A DNA stretch of 64,000 nt, taken from Lysobacter sp. K5869 (GTDB lineage: Bacteria; Pseudomonadota; Gammaproteobacteria; Xanthomonadales; Xanthomonadaceae). Made by a program: the position numbers and the translations under genes. Location: NCBI RefSeq assembly GCF_018847975.1, contig NZ_CP072597.1, forward strand, positions 2,147,001 through 2,211,000, given 5' to 3'. The notes below the pieces were generated by a model that worked only from the letters and a program-made list of their open reading frames with translations, searched no databases and was not told the origin of the DNA. Shown one piece after another: positions 9,740 through 64,000 of the stretch (positions within the stretch are counted from its first letter, which is position 1; every line of letters begins with the position of its first letter).

Positions 9740-10644
9740 TGCGCCGGCGCATCCGTGCCCGCGTCATGCGCCGCGCCATCGCGCCCGCGCTGATCGCGCC
9801 CGCCCGGGGCTTGCGCGTTCTTATCGCGCGCCACTTGGGCGGCGCGCGCGCGCGGGCCGTGGAAATACTCCTGCACCCACGGATGATCGAGTTTCTCGAC
9901 CTCCTGGATCGGCGCGCAGGCGATGACTTTCTTGTCGGCCAACACCGCGATGCGGTCGCAGATGGCGTAGAGCGTGTCCAGGTCGTGGGTGATCAGGAAC
10001 ACGGTCAAGCCCAGCGCCTGCTGCAGGGTGCGGATCAAGCGGTCGAACGCGGCCGCGCCGATCGGGTCGAGGCCGGCGGTGGGTTCGTCGAGGAACAGCA
10101 GCGGCGGGTCCAGCGCCAGCGCGCGGGCGAGGCCGGCGCGTTTGCGCATGCCGCCGGACAGCTGCGAGGGCAGCTTGTCGAGCGCGTCGGCGGGCAGGCC
10201 GCTCAACTTGACCTTGAGCAGCGCCAGTTCGTAGCGCAGCGAGTCGGGCAGTTCGCTGTGGTATTCCTTCAGCGGCACCTGCACGTTCTCGCCCACGGTC
10301 AGCGAGGAGAACAGCGCGCCGTCCTGGAACAGCACGCCGGTGTTGCGTTCGATCTCGCGGCGCAGCTGCGGATCCGGGCTGCGCGCGTCGATGCCGAGCA
10401 CTTCGATCTGCCCGGCGTTGGGCCGGCGCAGGCCGAGGATCGAGCGCATCATCACCGACTTGCCGGTGCCCGAGCCGCCGACCACGCCGATGATCTCGCC
10501 GCGGCGCACGTCCAGGTCCAGCCCGTCGTGGACGACCTGATCGCCGAAGTGGTTGACCAGACCGCGGATGCGGATGACGACGTCGTCGTTGTCGTTGCCG
10601 CCTTCGGCGGCGGGAACGGGGATCGGGGAATGGGGAATGGTCAT
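9736..10644 (-). CDS. MCE-system ABC transporter ATPase (MlaF/LinL-like)
   Basis: ATP-binding subunit that powers the MCE permease. Walker A is GGSGTGKSV, the signature is LSGGMRKRAGLARAL, and Walker B is LLFLDEPTAGLDP followed by the H-loop THDL. LSGGMRKR is characteristic of the MlaF subfamily. The start at 10644 gives 302 residues. The first residues after Met (TIPHSPIPVP) are encoded by one arm of a purine/pyrimidine-rich palindrome, so the N-terminal tail is probably repeat-derived and not functional. The C-terminal tail after the conserved domain is charged and low-complexity. Confidence 0.93.
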   Translation of the reverse strand: MTIPHSPIPVPAAEGGNDNDDVVIRIRGLVNHFGDQVVHDGLDLDVRRGEIIGVVGGSGTGKSVMMRSILGLRRPNAGQIEVLGIDARSPDPQLRREIERNTGVLFQDGALFSSLTVGENVQVPLKEYHSELPDSLRYELALLKVKLSGLPADALDKLPSQLSGGMRKRAGLARALALDPPLLFLDEPTAGLDPIGAAAFDRLIRTLQQALGLTVFLITHDLDTLYAICDRIAVLADKKVIACAPIQEVEKLDHPWVQEYFHGPRARAAQVARDKNAQAPGGRDQRGRDGAAHDAGTDAPAQ

Positions 10645-10724
10645 CGCGCAGCCTCGCGGACGTGCGCACGGCGACCCGCACCCAGCGCGCTCGCCATTCC
10701 CTGTTCCCGGTTCCCTGTTCCCTG
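10606..10724. repeat. Palindromic GGGAATGG-type element overlapping an ATPase start
   Basis: The left arm (about 10609-10640) is built of GGGAA/GGGGAATGG words and the right arm (about 10692-10724) of the complementary CCATTCCC/GTTCCC words. The ATPase start codon lies in the loop and the left arm is translated as its first codons. It is one of several related elements in the window. Confidence 0.75.
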
Positions 10725-21430: not shown

Positions 21431-21568
21431 GGCAGGCAATGAAGGGAATAAGGGGAGCGGGGAATGGCGGGTACGACGCGAGCGGGGGATTCAACCAAAG
21501 GTGAGGGCAAAGATCCGAGGGAGCAACCATTCCCCCTTTTCCCTGTTCCCCTTATTCCCCTGCTCCTG
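21431..21568. repeat. GGGAA-type palindrome between valS and holC
   Basis: The left arm (about 21434-21467: GGGAATAAGGGGAGCGGGGA) and right arm (about 21527-21566: CCATTCCCCC..TTCCCC words) are complementary and separated by about 60 bases. It is transcribed in the pepA-holC-valS operon and could fold into a long stem. Confidence 0.75.
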
Positions 21569-21571
21569 CAG

Positions 21572-21997
21572 CTACATATCGTGCTTACTGAGCTGCAACC
21601 CGCGCGCCTGATACTGCTTCCAGCGCTCGCGCAGCGGGCCGCGCGCGCCGTCGTCGGCGGGGACGACTTCCAGCACGCGGTCGAAACCGTCCGCGACCGC
21701 GGCGTCGCGCAGGTTGATCACCAGCGGGCGCAGCGCGGCGTCGCTGTCGGGCGCGGCGATCAGCACGTCGGCTTCGGCCTCGTCTTCGTCCAGGCCCGCG
21801 ATCTGGTGCGGGATGTAGGCGTCCTCGCCCATGTCCCACAGCATGTCGTCGAGTTGTTCGGCCTGCTCGGCGCTGCGCGCCAGGATCAGGGTCGGCAGGT
21901 TGGCGGCATGGGCCTTGCGCGCCAGCTCGCAGACCAAACGCAGCGGTTCGGCTTTGAAGCGCGGCGATTGGATGAGGTAGAAGTCGGCGCGGGCCAT
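21572..21997 (-). CDS. holC: DNA polymerase III chi subunit
   Basis: A 141-residue HolC homologue. Chi pairs with psi and binds the C-terminal tail of SSB, tying the clamp loader to single-stranded DNA. The N-terminus MARADFYLIQSP, the central LILARSAEQAEQLDDMLW and the C-terminal RERWKQYQARGLQL are family features. It lies in the conserved pepA-holC-valS order, about 3.5 kb from the HolD candidate that would be its partner. Confidence 0.94.
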   Translation of the reverse strand: MARADFYLIQSPRFKAEPLRLVCELARKAHAANLPTLILARSAEQAEQLDDMLWDMGEDAYIPHQIAGLDEDEAEADVLIAAPDSDAALRPLVINLRDAAVADGFDRVLEVVPADDGARGPLRERWKQYQARGLQLSKHDM

Positions 21998-22004
21998 AAG
22001 GTTT

Positions 22005-22211
22005 CAGAAGCGGGAAAGAGGGGAACAAAGGGAGCCGGGAATGGGGAGCGCAGCGGCGAAACCGCCATTCCCCGTTCCCTTGTTTCCCTTTGTTCCCTGG
22101 TGCTTCGAAAGCGGGAAAGAGGGGAGCGAGGAGAGCGGGGAGAGCGGGGAATGGGGAGCGGAGCGGCGAAACCGCCATTCCCCGTTCCCCTGTTTCCCTT
22201 TATTCCCTAGC
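22005..22211. repeat. Two tandem GGGAA-type palindromes between holC and pepA
   Basis: Two direct units of about 100 bases (about 22005-22100 and 22104-22211). Each starts AAGCGGGAAAGAGGGGA and carries a GGGGAATGG arm, an AGCGGCGAAACCGC turn and a CCATTCCCC arm followed by TTTCCCTTT words. Each can fold into a long imperfect hairpin. The duplication suggests local copying of a whole element. Confidence 0.8.
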
Positions 22212-26162: not shown

Positions 26163-26191
26163 AGCTCGCCGCGTCGCGGCCGCAGCCGCCT

Positions 26192-26320
26192 GTAGGAGCG
26201 ACGCGAGTCGCGACCGCGACATCGCATCTGCCGCGCAAGCCGCGGTTCGCCGTAGTTCCGCCAGAACCGAAGTCGCGCCGGCGTATGAGGTCGCGCGGTC
26301 GCGACTCGCGTCGCTCCTAC
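26192..26320. repeat. GTAG-headed REP pair (inverted)
   Basis: A 27-base perfect inverted repeat: GTAGGAGCGACGCGAGTCGC and following bases at 26192-26218, with its complement at 26294-26320. Each arm has its own small palindrome (GCGAC / GTCGC). The GTAG head and paired, inverted arrangement fit REP elements moved by REP-associated tyrosine transposases. It lies between the convergent lptG and RDD genes. Confidence 0.85.
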
Positions 26321-26333
26321 AGGGGGCGGCCGA

Positions 26334-26801: not shown

Positions 26802-26819
26802 CGCGCCAGGATAAAGGCA

Positions 26820-26910
26820 GGAGTTAGCGGATAGGAGCTAGGAGTTAGCGAAAGCCGCAACACCGGTTTTCCCGCTTTCGCTAACTCCTAACTCCTATCC
26901 GCTAGCTTCT
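26820..26910. repeat. TAGGAGTTAG-type palindrome upstream of xerD
   Basis: The left arm (26820-26855) has GGATAGGAGCTAGGAGTTAG words and the right arm (26874-26910) is their reverse complement, with an 18-base loop. The stem would exceed 30 bases. It shares its plan with the GGGAA and ACGAG palindromes here, but the word differs. Confidence 0.8.
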
Positions 26911-26929
26911 GCTGTTCTAAGCTTCCGCC

Positions 26930-30189: not shown

Positions 30190-30318
30190 GTAGGAGCGGC
30201 GTAAGCCGCGACCACGACCTCGCACCCCCGGCGCAAGCCCCGAAGCCCTGGCGTTCCGCGGGAAGCCGGCCCGCGCCGGCCGGCGGAGCGGCGCGGTCGC
30301 GGCTTACGCCGCTCCTAC
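30190..30318. repeat. GTAG-headed REP pair (inverted)
   Basis: A 24-base perfect inverted repeat: GTAGGAGCGGCGTAAGCCGC plus GACC at 30190-30213, with its complement at 30295-30318. Each arm carries an internal GCGGC / GCCGC palindrome. It belongs to the same family as the pair at 26192-26320, with a different internal stem. Confidence 0.85.
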
Positions 30319-47587: not shown

Positions 47588-47624
47588 GCGCGGCGCCCGG
47601 TCGCGTTCTGCGCGGTTTTTCATA

Positions 47625-47756
47625 GGGTCGGCGCGAGCCGCGACCGCGCAGCTTCAAGCCGCACCGTGGCCTCGATGCCGTCGCGGGCATCGCTATGCCG
47701 TGCGGCTTGCGCCGCGTTGGCATTGGCGCGATCGCGGCGTGCGCCGCTCCTGCGGA
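47625..47756. repeat. Degenerate REP pair
   Basis: A left arm with GGTCGGCGCGAGCCGCGACC (47625 onward) and a right arm with CGCGGCGTGCGCCGCTCCTG (ending near 47754) resemble the GTAG-type REP pairs with several mismatches and a lost GTAG head. An inner AAGCCGCAC / GTGCGGCTT inverted repeat lies between. The rest of the gap to 48056 is GC-rich without a credible gene. Confidence 0.55.
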
Positions 47757-59912: not shown

Positions 59913-60233
59913 GGTCGGGGCATCCAGAACTAATTCGGGCCGGCCGGGCGGCGGCGGGCCGGGGAGGTGGGAGGGCGGGGCCATTGTCCGCCCCGGACGG
60001 GGGCGGCGGGAGCCGCGCTTTGGCGGTTGGCCGCCATACGCCCCTAGGCTAACATTTCAAGTCTTACGTCAAGCCGCCCGGGCCGATTCAGGCACCCGGG
60101 CCGCGCTGCGGAGATGGGCCGCCCGGCCCGAGATTTCAAGCCCGGGCGGGGCCGCCCGCGCGCTGTCCGGGCCCGTGGGCGGTCTGGCGCGAGTCCTCCC
60201 CTCCCGTCCGCTTACTTCTCCCCGAGGCCGCGA
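59913..60233. other. Divergent region upstream of glyA
   Basis: About 320 bases between the divergent lpxO-like gene and glyA. It has a TAGGCTAACATTT AT-richer stretch around 60045-60060 and several GGCCCGGGC palindromes. I see no riboswitch fold I can name and no confident promoter. Confidence 0.35.
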
Positions 60234-61511
<1,278 letters not shown>

Positions 61512-61513
61512 GG

Positions 61514-61992
61514 CAGGGAACCGGGAAATAAGGGAATGAAGGGAATGGCGGCTTCGTGCCGCCGTCATTGTCGCCAAGGAGGGCGAGATGACTTTGGATT
61601 ATCGCGGTTTGAAGGTTTGGCAGGAGGCGATGCGTTTGGCCGAGACGGTGTATCGGCTGTGCGAGGGATATCCTGCCGAAGAGCGCTATGGCTTGGTGGC
61701 GCAGTTGAAGAGGGCCGCGGTTTCGGTGCCCTCTTGCATTGCCGAAGGTAACGCGCGCGGCAGCGTGCGCGACTACCTGAGGTTTTTGTCGATGGCGAAC
61801 GGGTCGCTGGCGGAGGTGCACACCCAATTGCTGCTTTCGATTCGACTGGGATTCCCAGACACCCAGGCCGCATCGCAAGCCCTCGACCATTTGCGCCGCG
61901 TTTCTTTTCTGTTGCAATCGCTCCGAAAGTCGCTGAAGGTCAAACTACAGCGTCCCAACCATTCCCCACTCCCTGTTCCCCATTCCCCGCTC
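61514..61992. mobile_element. IVS-like element: palindrome arms around an S23-family gene
   Basis: A left arm of GGGAA words (61514-61556: GGGAACCGGG, AAGGGAATGAAGGGAATGG) and a right arm of the complementary words (61956-61990: CCATTCCCC, CTCCCTGTTCCCCATTCCCC) enclose a four-helix-bundle gene. The arms match the ORF-less palindromes at 10.6, 21.4 and 22.0-22.2 kb. The arrangement recalls intervening sequences of 23S rRNA genes, where an S23-family ORF sits in a hairpin. No target-site duplication is visible. Confidence 0.5.
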
Positions 61993-61995
61993 TAA
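61588..61995 (+). CDS. Four-helix bundle protein (S23/23S rRNA IVS family)
   Basis: A 135-residue helical protein of the S23 family. The diagnostic features are YRGLKVWQEAMRLAETVYRL, a GLVAQLKRAAVSVPSCIAEG block and a GSLAEVHTQLLLSIRLG block. Relatives are encoded in 23S rRNA intervening sequences, and some (Avd) assist diversity-generating retroelements. A strong AAGGAGG ribosome site lies nine bases upstream. The last 13 residues (PNHSPLPVPHSPL) are encoded by the right palindrome arm, so the native end is probably earlier. No rRNA, reverse transcriptase or other partner is nearby. It splits glyA from nrdR. Confidence 0.9.
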   Translation: MTLDYRGLKVWQEAMRLAETVYRLCEGYPAEERYGLVAQLKRAAVSVPSCIAEGNARGSVRDYLRFLSMANGSLAEVHTQLLLSIRLGFPDTQAASQALDHLRRVSFLLQSLRKSLKVKLQRPNHSPLPVPHSPL

Positions 61996-61998
61996 AAA

Positions 61999-62514
61999 AT
62001 GCATTGCCCCTTCTGCCAGCACCACGACACCCGCGTGATCGACTCGCGCGTGTCCGACGACGGCGCCACGATCCGGCGCCGCCGCGTGTGCGAGGCCTGC
62101 GGCGAGCGTTTCAGCACGCTGGAAACCATCGAGCTGAAGCTGCCGGTCATCATCAAGGGCGACGGGCGCCGCGAGGCGTTCGACGCGCGCAAGCTGCGCG
62201 CCGGGTTCGACCGCGCGCTGCAGAAGCGGCCGGTGTCGGAAGAGCAGATCGAAGCGGCGGTGCGCGCGGTCGTGCACCAGCTGCGCATGACCGCCGAGCG
62301 CGAGCTGGCCTCGCGCCGGGTCGGCGAGTTCGTCATGGCCGAGTTGCGCAAGCTCGACCACGTCGGCTACGTGCGCTTCGCCTCGGTGTACCGTTCGTTC
62401 GAGGACGTGGCCGATTTCCGCGAGGAGCTCGACCGGCTCGAACGCGACGCGCCGGGCGACGGGCAGTTGCCGTTGCTGGGCGAGGATTCGGCGCCGGACC
62501 GCAAGCGCCGCTGA
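61999..62514 (+). CDS. nrdR: Transcriptional repressor NrdR
   Basis: Zinc-ribbon/ATP-cone repressor of ribonucleotide reductase genes (171 residues). The N-terminal zinc ribbon has CPFC and CEAC pairs ([28 protein letters not shown]). The ATP-cone domain covers residues about 50-140 ([17 protein letters not shown]). The C-terminus is a charged tail. It is classically linked to ribD-ribE, as here. Confidence 0.96.
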
Positions 62515-62524
62515 GCTCATCGGC

Positions 62525-63007
62525 ATGGCCGCGCCCGCACGCTATCGCTACCTGCGCCCGCGTTTGCGCAACCACTACTTCTCGCTGTGGATCGCGTTCG
62601 CGGCGGTGTTGCCGGGGATCGCGGCGTACGCGTGGTTCCACTGGGCGCCGGGCCAGGACCCTCTGATCTGGCTGACGCTCGGCTGGGCGGCGTTTTCGTT
62701 GCTGCTCTGGCTAGGCTCGCGCCGCGCCGAAGCCCGGCATTGGCGCTTCTTCGACGGGCTGAGCTATTGGTTCGAGGGCGGTCGTCTGCACAGCGAAGGG
62801 CCGATCAACGGCGCGGTGGATCTGAGCCGGGTGCGCAAGGTGGACGTCTTCGTTTCGCGCGGCGTCGTCGACCGTCTGGCTATATGGTTGGACGAGGATG
62901 CGACGCCGATGCTGATCGTCGGCATCGACCGGCCGGAGGCGTTCGCGTCCGAACTGCGCCGCCACGCGCCCCGCGCGCGCTACGAAACCGTAAAGGACTG
63001 GGCATGA
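62525..63007 (+). CDS. Small membrane protein of unknown function
   Basis: A 160-residue protein with two N-terminal helices (FSLWIAFAAVLPGIAAYAWF, LIWLTLGWAAFSLLLWLG) and a soluble C-terminal domain with alternating hydrophobic strands (VRKVDVFVSRGVVDRLAIWL). It lies ten bases after nrdR and its stop overlaps the ribD start by ATGA, so it is part of the same operon. I do not recognise a family. Confidence 0.75.
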   Translation: MAAPARYRYLRPRLRNHYFSLWIAFAAVLPGIAAYAWFHWAPGQDPLIWLTLGWAAFSLLLWLGSRRAEARHWRFFDGLSYWFEGGRLHSEGPINGAVDLSRVRKVDVFVSRGVVDRLAIWLDEDATPMLIVGIDRPEAFASELRRHAPRARYETVKDWA

Positions 63008-64000
63008 GCGACTTCACCGCCACCGACCACCTGCACATGGCCCGCGCCCTGCGCCTGGCCGAGAAGGGCGCCTACACCACCAAGCCGAACCCGATGGTCG
63101 GTTGCGTGATCGCGCACGGCGACGAGGTCGTCGGCGAAGGCTGGCACGAACGCGCCGGCGAGCCGCACGCGGAAATCCACGCATTGCGCAGCGCCGGCGA
63201 ACGCGCGCGCGGCGCCACCGCCTACGTGACGCTGGAGCCGTGCGCGCACACCGGCCGCACCGGGCCGTGCAGCGATGCGTTGATCGCAGCCGGCGTGGCG
63301 CGCGTGGTCGCGGCGATGCGCGACCCGTTCCCGCAGGTCGACGGCGCCGGTTTCGCCAAGCTGCAGGCCGCGGGCATCGCGGTCAGCAGCGGCTTGATGG
63401 AGGCGCAGGCGCGCGCGCTCAACCGCGGCTTTCTGTCGCGAGTGGAACGCGGACGGCCGTGGCTGCGGGTGAAATTGGCGGCGAGCCTGGACGGGCGCAG
63501 CGCCATGGCCAGCGGCGAGTCGAAGTGGATCAGCGGCGAAGCCTCGCGCCAGGACGTGCAATTGTGGCGCGCGCGCGCCGGCGCCATCGTCACCGGCGCC
63601 GGCACGGTGCTGGCCGACGATCCCTCGCTGACCGTGCGCCTGGGCGACGACACGCCGTTCGTGGCGCCGCTGCGCGTGGTGCTCGACCCGGGTCTGGCGA
63701 CGGTCGCGCGCGGCCGCGTGCGCGAGGGCGACGCGCCCACGCTGTACCTGCACGCGCCCGACGCCAAACCGCCGCGCGGCCTCGACGCGCAGGTCGCGGC
63801 GGTGCCGGTGCGCGAGGGCCGCATCGACCTGGAAGCCGTGCTCAAGCTGCTGGCCGAGCGCGGCGTCAACGAAATCCAACTCGAAGCCGGCGCGACCTTG
63901 GCCGGCGCGTTCCTGACCCAGGGCTTGGTCGACGAAGTGCTGCTGTACGTGGCCCCGGTACTGCTCGGCGAAACCGCGCGGCCGCTGTTCGACGGCCTCG
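63004..64000 (+). CDS. ribD: Riboflavin biosynthesis protein RibD (partial, runs off the window)
   Basis: Bifunctional deaminase/reductase of riboflavin synthesis. About 332 residues are in view, with the C-terminus beyond the edge. The deaminase zinc site is HAEIHAL plus EPCAHTGRTGPCSDAL. The reductase domain begins near residue 155 (WLRVKLAASLDGRSAMASGE). The ATG at 63004 overlaps the upstream stop by ATGA. It converts the GTP cyclohydrolase II product to 5-amino-6-ribitylamino-uracil phosphate. Confidence 0.95.
   Translation, partial: MSDFTATDHLHMARALRLAEKGAYTTKPNPMVGCVIAHGDEVVGEGWHERAGEPHAEIHALRSAGERARGATAYVTLEPCAHTGRTGPCSDALIAAGVARVVAAMRDPFPQVDGAGFAKLQAAGIAVSSGLMEAQARALNRGFLSRVERGRPWLRVKLAASLDGRSAMASGESKWISGEASRQDVQLWRARAGAIVTGAGTVLADDPSLTVRLGDDTPFVAPLRVVLDPGLATVARGRVREGDAPTLYLHAPDAKPPRGLDAQVAAVPVREGRIDLEAVLKLLAERGVNEIQLEAGATLAGAFLTQGLVDEVLLYVAPVLLGETARPLFDGL

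Follow-up and report, generated by a model that had tools for sequence, protein, structure and literature searches.

An S23 gene between complementary arms in the glyA-nrdR spacer

The window, by which we mean the whole stretch of 64,000 nt analyzed here (Lysobacter sp. K5869, NZ_CP072597.1, positions 2,147,001-2,211,000), carries the feature under study at positions 61514-61995, in a 487-nt spacer between two operon genes. The upstream gene, for a serine hydroxymethyltransferase, is one that we take from its sequence to be glyA (60234-61511, plus strand; the start at 60234 was read from the sequence, whereas the listed open reading frame (ORF) begins further upstream, at 60114), and the downstream ORF, recognized by eye, is presumably nrdR (61999-62514, plus strand), as an earlier note on this DNA had proposed for both. 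The spacer contains no rRNA. From 5' to 3', it comprises a G-rich arm, then a small hairpin and a Shine-Dalgarno-like site, then a gene of the S23 family (23S_rRNA_IVP, four helix bundle), and a C-rich arm inside the 3' end of that gene. The G-rich 5' arm (GGGAACCGGGAAATAAGGGAATGAAGGGAATGG, 61516-61548, plus strand) begins 4 nt past the glyA stop and is built of tandem units, mostly at 9-nt spacing. At its inner end lies the small hairpin GGCGGC-TTCGT-GCCGCC (61547-61563, plus strand), present in both the minimum free energy (MFE) and the centroid folds, and the sequence AAGGAGGG (61576-61583, plus strand), 4 nt upstream of the S23 start codon, may act as a ribosome-binding site.

The S23 gene itself (61588-61995, plus strand) encodes 135 amino acids and was identified as an ORF with profile matches to PF05635 (109 bits against a curated cut-off of 33.8) and to TIGR02436, 'four helix bundle protein' (106 bits against 24). 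It is the sole PF05635 match in the Lysobacter sp. K5869 genome, and its only match in the PDB by sequence is 2gsc, X. campestris XCC0516. S23 lies on the same strand as glyA and nrdR, its stop ends 3 nt ahead of the nrdR start, and it is the only gene of the element, which carries no nuclease, recombinase or reverse transcriptase. A comparison with its counterpart in genome G006 gave a dN/dS of 0.12, indicating purifying selection. Rfam gave zero matches across window positions 60000-64000. The ORF, the profile match and the arm coordinates thus confirm the earlier note in its reading of an S23/IVS-family gene between complementary arms. The C-rich 3' arm (CCATTCCCCACTCCCTGTTCCCCATTCCCC, 61959-61988, plus strand, period 7) is indeed translated as the C-terminal codons of S23, as that note had said, but it falls within the last 12 codons (NHSPLPVPHSPL), not 13.

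The arms of the window locus are imperfect, with a spacing of 9 nt on the left and 7 nt on the right. When checked against the intergenic 7-nt repeats of the GGGNATC type, the 3' arm is coding and, on its G-rich strand, repeats every 7 nt, whereas the 5' arm has period 9, and with lags of 9 and 7 the locus fails the strict paired-array test that we applied to its relatives. Its best stem score was reached in 9 of 200 shuffles, and once gaps were penalized more heavily, the arms were not the top local match at the locus. In a fold of the 506-nt RNA, a check that the earlier note had suggested, the arms do pair, with an MFE of -215.3 kcal/mol against -196.7 (sd 6.7) for shuffles (z -2.76; 1 of 100 shuffles reached an MFE as low). 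Taken alone, the window locus is therefore only modestly above chance and not striking; it is the comparison with relatives that makes it more than chance.

ORF-less palindromes elsewhere in the window

The palindromes without an ORF that the earlier note had seen at 10.6, 21.4 and 22.0-22.2 kb are real. They comprise hairpins at 10612-10722 (GGGAAxx units), 21444-21559 (GGGAAxx type) and 22012-22097 (GGGAAxx type, spacing 9), all found in the sequence and by palindrome scan, and a near-copy of the last at 22110-22207, read from the sequence without a separate scan entry. All four are assigned to the minus strand, on which, as at the S23 locus, the G-rich arm comes first. The hairpin at 21444-21559 adjoins a minus-strand ORF (21572-21997) and lies downstream of it in sense. 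We found a fifth hairpin, with a different, GGAGTTA-type unit and an 8-nt loop, at 26817-26912 (sequence and scan, no strand assigned). The window scan also returned long palindromes without a heptad period at 26182-26330, 30190-30318 and 47624-47751; two of them share a GTAGGAGCG...CGCGACC core and the third is similar, and they probably form a separate REP-like family.

Paired heptad arrays flank S23 genes at other loci

S23 loci were collected from 60 relatives (32 with a match), 297 family genomes (127 with a match), 249 phylum genomes (44 with a match), 30 plasmid records (eight loci read) and a scan of species genomes, from which we took as named loci the best 80 of at least 590 confirmed stretches. 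The set is a sample of stronger matches, with up to 30 high-scoring loci per genome search. Of 178 loci collected, 171 were kept after removing seven. Dropped from the locus counts were two duplicates (L050 of L029, L052 of L004), L078, which nearly repeats L077, the truncated L075, L081, whose match was misplaced, and L091, which has no clear arms, in itself no good ground for exclusion; L057, a true carAB locus of G006, is missing from the array and orientation counts by oversight and stands in the site count and the tree. Three further loci were masked or had too little flank, leaving 168 testable for arrays. Because stem scores of at least 20 occurred in 135 of 658 shifted windows (103 of these from the order and family set), we rejected stem length alone as a test and instead asked for arrays of period 7 or 8 on either side of S23 that pair with each other, using windows shifted by 700 or 900 nt as controls.

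Of 168 S23 loci, 103 have paired arrays, as against none of 658 shifted windows from the same loci; the other 65 loci, the window locus included, fail this strict test. Positives came from every set (order and family 42/57, phylum 12/26, plasmids 7/8, named loci 42/77). Judged by a stem criterion instead, 38 of the 80 named loci had a margin of 5 or more over the highest-scoring of 30 shuffles. The array period was 7 in 99 of the 103 paired loci and 8 in the remaining four, while the unit itself varied from locus to locus, with 58 consensus units among the 103. Xanthomonadales relatives carry GGGAATC, GGGATTC or GGGACTC, and a plasmid locus (L098) keeps period 7 in the AT-rich unit TTAGCTG. 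The 5' arm holds more G than C at 98 of the 103 loci, and at 35 of them it has no GGG run. Among 133 loci with a 3' array, S23 runs 14 nt or more into it at 41, most of them from the order to which the window belongs.

The two arms change together. At 87 of the 103 loci, the 5' arm finds a better partner in its own 3' arm than in at least 95% of the 3' arms taken from other loci, and the median fraction of foreign arms that equal the own one is 0.010; outside the first order and family sample, the count is 52 of 61. This count needs arms that pair, a requirement that removed only 5 of 108 loci with arrays on both sides. The arms of relatives are thus tandem heptads whose unit changes freely and in both arms at once, which goes beyond what the earlier note had proposed. 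At the level of sequence, these comparisons establish that a 7-nt-unit architecture is common across the S23 family, in many phyla, and that its arms co-vary. They also largely uphold the suggestion that IVS-like S23 elements live outside rRNA: at 60 related S23 loci, none had rRNA within the stretch read.

In one genome, two S23 elements at different places align from arm to arm only (479 nt, 69%), and one has 7-nt units, the other 8-nt units. Related elements likewise have either 7-nt units (GGCAGTA; L063, L066 and L070) or 8-nt units (GGGCAGTA; L269) throughout the array, as if the unit length itself could switch. An S23 gene with a heptad array on its 5' side was also seen on a contig of a Methanophagales archaeon (L233), a metagenome-assembled genome in which contamination is possible.

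Orientation and sites of S23 elements

Scoring the neighboring ORFs at 171 loci, we found both on the S23 strand at 143, both on the opposite strand at 10 and a mixed arrangement at 16, with one flank unread at 2; the scoring matched the annotation at the seven plasmid loci compared by eye (L092-L096, L098 and L099). Opposite-oriented copies include one between nrdA and nrdB on a Nostoc plasmid and one on a Calothrix plasmid, and sense orientation is therefore a strong tendency, not a law. The 58 loci of the order and family set lie at carA-carB (24), accB-accC (19), glyA-nrdR (2) and other sites (13), of which, for the tree, five were labelled by eye as nrdA-nrdB and two as ABC-transporter/regulator. 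On Pseudanabaena and Anabaena plasmids (L094 and L095), S23 lies between cas6 and cas4 in type I-D CRISPR operons, with heptads that differ between the two. At one carA-carB locus (L004), inspection by eye suggests that the 5' arm is translated as a new C-terminal tail of CarA, and that the S23 stop lies one base before the carB start, as the carA stop does in empty sites.

Elements come and go at shared slots

At accB-accC, 12 of 30 genomes have an S23 element (spacers of 439-479 nt), 4 have an ORF-less hairpin (106-150 nt; Lysobacter sp. K5869 itself is one of them) and 14 have neither, with spacers of 6-11 nt in 12 genomes and of 45 and 90 nt in two. All three states occur among congeners, whose empty spacers measure 8-10 nt. 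Empty sites thus exist. The 3' arm abuts the accC start in several species. The earlier note had named a fixed glyA-S23-nrdR arrangement in every related strain as evidence against its reading, and the arrangement is not fixed: of 25 genomes, 2 have S23 there, 10 an ORF-less heptad hairpin and 13 no heptad hairpin. Eleven of these 13 have some other spacer, longer where measurable; the exceptions are G032, with a palindrome without heptads, and G034, with neither. G006 has an S23 element with arms in this slot, and the units of the ORF-less hairpins at glyA-nrdR differ between species. In G005 (L107), the 424-nt spacer is filled by three near-identical ORF-less hairpins in direct tandem, and therefore whole hairpins can duplicate head to tail.

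Close pairs of genomes reveal exchange within conserved flanks. In G018 and G005, accB and accC are 99.3 and 98.8% identical, while the elements between them are only 70.7% identical; the corresponding values are 98.4, 98.7 and 70.3% for G006 and G007, and 96.7, 99.2 and 72.6% for G017 and G003. G013, which is empty (10 nt), and G012, which is filled (457 nt), have flanks that are 98.2 and 98.7% identical. In the G005/G018 pair, the left exchange boundary falls inside the array. No clean case of target duplication appeared in the filled/empty comparisons of close pairs among the 30 accB-accC genomes, and second copies in 11 genomes gave no case of recent transposition; the only identical pair remained identical across all 3.4 kb compared and is therefore a duplicated region. 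These alignments document turnover of S23 elements and of their ORF-less versions at shared slots in closely related species, and show different S23 elements between nearly identical flanks.

In a tree of S23 copies, loci group by site: 19/19 for accB-accC, 5/5 for nrdA-nrdB, 2/2 for glyA-nrdR and, for carA-carB, one clade of 21 plus 2 outliers, of 23. The tree is built on few columns, 22 of its 57 inner branches are open, and one of the 24 carAB loci in the site count is missing from it, since short rows were excluded. Alignment A1 is without L088, and L062 is shortened in it. Since S23 lineages cluster by site, much of their spread is by descent or allelic exchange. S23 lineages thus stay at their sites and are exchanged or lost there like homing elements, and homologous recombination between conserved flanks could produce the same picture. 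Among 14 S23 pairs, dN/dS was 0.03-0.17 in 12, indicating purifying selection; of the remaining two, one pair is identical and one has a single synonymous difference.

S23 and the genome-wide load of heptads

We counted exact triple heptads of two unit types in the 297 family genomes, with the reversed pattern as a control that gave zero in nearly all genomes and at most 68 (G075). Genomes with S23 (n=127) had a median of 63 triple heptads, and 98 of them had at least 5; genomes without S23 (n=170) had a median of 0, and 29 reached 5 (Fisher p 3.6e-26). The cut-off was set at 5 as a number that the arms of one S23 element should hardly reach, and an element's own arms were not subtracted. When S23 labels were permuted within the 26 mixed genera (265 genomes), p was 5e-5, the floor of 20000 shuffles. 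Some genomes without S23 carry a high load (G008 has 321, two of genus g64 more than 200) and 29 of the 127 with S23 have fewer than 5 triple heptads; given exceptions in both directions, arrays must persist, or arise, without S23. Lysobacter sp. K5869 itself has only 10 triple heptads because its units are degenerate. For another heptad type, counted in the 249 phylum genomes, 10 of the 11 genomes with at least 5 matches have S23, compared with 44 of 249 overall (Fisher 1.1e-7), a weak replication in that 7 of the 10 positives belong to one genus and the 13 listed matches of G560 lie beside its own S23 gene.

The earlier note had named arms that occur independently of S23 genes as evidence against its reading, and this holds in part. 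Arms without S23 do occur, by the hundreds, but they are statistically tied to S23, and genomes with S23 are, by these counts, far richer in heptad arrays. Its suggestion that the ORF-less palindromes are relatives of the S23 element is likewise sustained, as these occupy the same slots in sister species and are far commoner in genomes with S23.

Three further comparisons were set aside. Reverse transcriptase (PF00078) is absent from the Lysobacter sp. K5869 genome and, as a candidate partner of S23, showed no association in the family genomes (30/127 with S23, 36/170 without, p=0.67), although heptad load was weakly higher in genomes that have it (p=0.026). An agreement between the unit of the S23 arms and the main unit of the genome, across 22 hand-labelled genomes, gave p=0.024 uncorrected for kinship, with G020 and G005 as exceptions, and is not relied on. 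Generic hairpin density in six genomes was dominated by GC-rich coding stems and included too few heptad hairpins to compare genomes with and without S23.

A candidate mobile element that inherits a period

Paired arrays, turnover at shared slots and the heptad load of S23-bearing genomes together make S23 look like the cognate protein of bacterial heptamer repeats. We lean, by a little, toward reading the window element as an IVS-like selfish element of operon spacers, composed of an array, S23 and a complementary array, in which S23 promotes the copying of heptads. The element would be transcribed from a host promoter, and its arms would fold in the message into a double-stranded RNA stem, possibly cut by RNase III, the enzyme that excises 23S rRNA IVSs without ligation. 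A pentameric S23 protein would bind heptad hairpins and, with host enzymes, would promote, in cis as well as in trans, the copying, insertion and homogenization of heptads. Arrays that lack an ORF would then be non-autonomous copies of the element and relate to it as REP sequences do to RAYT, or MITEs to a transposase. The S23 frame, which crosses the 3' arm as far as the start codon of the next gene, would maintain translational coupling to that gene. What the counts show is an association; the causal step, with S23 making or spreading the arrays, is our inference. A nearly constant 7-nt period with a freely changing unit may point to a mechanism that measures length, and we speculate that the length is measured by slippage or by wrapping on the S23 ring.

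A wider version, which we hold more tentatively and somewhat doubt, is that S23/IVP drives heptamer repeats in trans, often from one gene per genome, by a length-dependent, 7-nt, sequence-independent mechanism, with the rRNA IVS as one landing site among others. Its scope would be operon spacers across bacteria, perhaps also archaea. If true, it would describe a class of mobile elements that inherits the period of its arms, not a fixed sequence; the link would give S23 and the heptamer repeats a testable role each, and the 23S rRNA IVS could be re-read as a special case.

Causality may run the other way, which we consider unlikely though worth taking seriously: arrays would be products of polymerase slippage and quasi-palindrome correction, serving S23 elements as mere landing pads or handles for recombination, and for that reason S23 would be found where arrays are common. 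Slippage in 7-nt steps is a guess already published on heptamer origin, in the portions of PMC4679880 and PMC4692102 available, and both the exchange boundary inside the G005/G018 array and the presence of 5 or more triple heptads in 29 of 170 S23-free genomes (100-300 in some of them) fit this order of events. However, slippage alone does not account for two arms that are separated by about 400 nt and change their unit together, including a switch from 7-nt to 8-nt units, or for the regular nesting of S23 between arrays, and 141 of the 170 S23-free genomes have fewer than 5 triple heptads, a contrast that persists within genera.

We regard as improbable that the structure is an intercistronic hairpin of benefit to the host, tuning mRNA stability or stoichiometry, with S23 as a domesticated RNA-binding regulator carried along. 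The sense orientation between co-directional genes, the purifying selection on S23, its overlap with 3' arrays (41 of 133 loci) and the 3' arm set against the accC start in several species would suit such a role. However, 12 of 30 relatives manage with element-free accB-accC spacers of 6-11 nt, and the glyA-nrdR hairpins of relatives are ORF-less or absent; an element so freely swapped and lost is unlike a conserved regulator.

Very improbable, in our judgment, is that the arms are ordinary G-quadruplex (G4) repeats (Rehm et al. 2015), with GGGNATC selected for G4 and S23 an incidental neighbor. The units of Xanthomonadales relatives are of this kind, and such oligonucleotides are reported to form G4 in vitro (PMC4692102, accessible text). 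However, 35 of 103 paired 5' arms lack any GGG run, the arms are inverted and complementary, and AT-rich units such as TTAGCTG keep period 7. Chance palindromes beside an unrelated S23 gene, which the 9 of 200 shuffles at the window locus might have suggested, can be dismissed with near certainty by the 103 of 168 loci against 0 of 658 shifted windows and by the armed S23 element of G006 in the same glyA-nrdR slot.

Comparison with known systems

REP sequences with RAYT, and MITEs with a transposase, resemble the S23 element in that a genome has a single protein gene, or a few, and numerous short palindromic, non-autonomous copies. Unlike these, S23 matches no transposase family, and S23-type copies share a period and not a sequence. 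From DNA transposons and insertion sequences, the element differs in lacking a transposase and, in the filled/empty comparisons, a clean target-site duplication. Avd of diversity-generating retroelements is a small pentameric four-helix bundle and a fold relative of S23, but a PF00078 reverse transcriptase is absent from the window's own genome and shows no association with S23 across the 297 genomes. Cyanobacterial STRR repeats are intergenic and have a heptanucleotide period; here, their link to S23 was examined at eight plasmid loci (seven of them cyanobacterial) and at cyanobacterial named loci only.

Bacterial heptamers of the types GGGNATC and GGGGA(C/T)T, with four units preferred, have been described in Xanthomonas and Nostoc, where they favor spacers between aligned ORFs and form 70 and 75 inverted pairs in two genomes (PMC4692102, as far as its accessible text goes). 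The window's relatives share with them the unit type, in part the order, and the position between aligned ORFs. The available parts of that paper treat them as G4-forming simple repeats, generally not associated with mobile elements, and its main text, to the extent accessible, does not use the term S23. In excerpts of two other sources, heptamers are the most abundant intergenic tandem repeats, of function not known (PMC6344855), and TAACTGA heptamers are dealt with (PMC4679880). In full-text searches of open-access papers, we saw no listed paper other than PMC4990558 that links S23 with heptamer repeats.

According to the accessible portion of that source, the Coxiella 23S IVS has an S23 ORF inside terminal inverted repeats, a 28-bp stem and, upstream of the ORF, heptamers in tandem. 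The source also describes the S23 protein of X. campestris as a toroidal homopentamer and 23S IVSs as sporadic in distribution. The window element is like the 23S rRNA IVSs of Coxiella and Leptospira in its sense S23 ORF within terminal inverted repeats and in its sporadic presence among relatives; it is like that of Coxiella in having tandem heptamers by the ORF (PMC4990558, same portion), and the two compare in length at 428 nt for Coxiella and about 475 nt here. The window element lies in a protein-coding operon spacer, not inside an rRNA gene: it works like an IVS and shares its parts, yet it is not an rRNA IVS.
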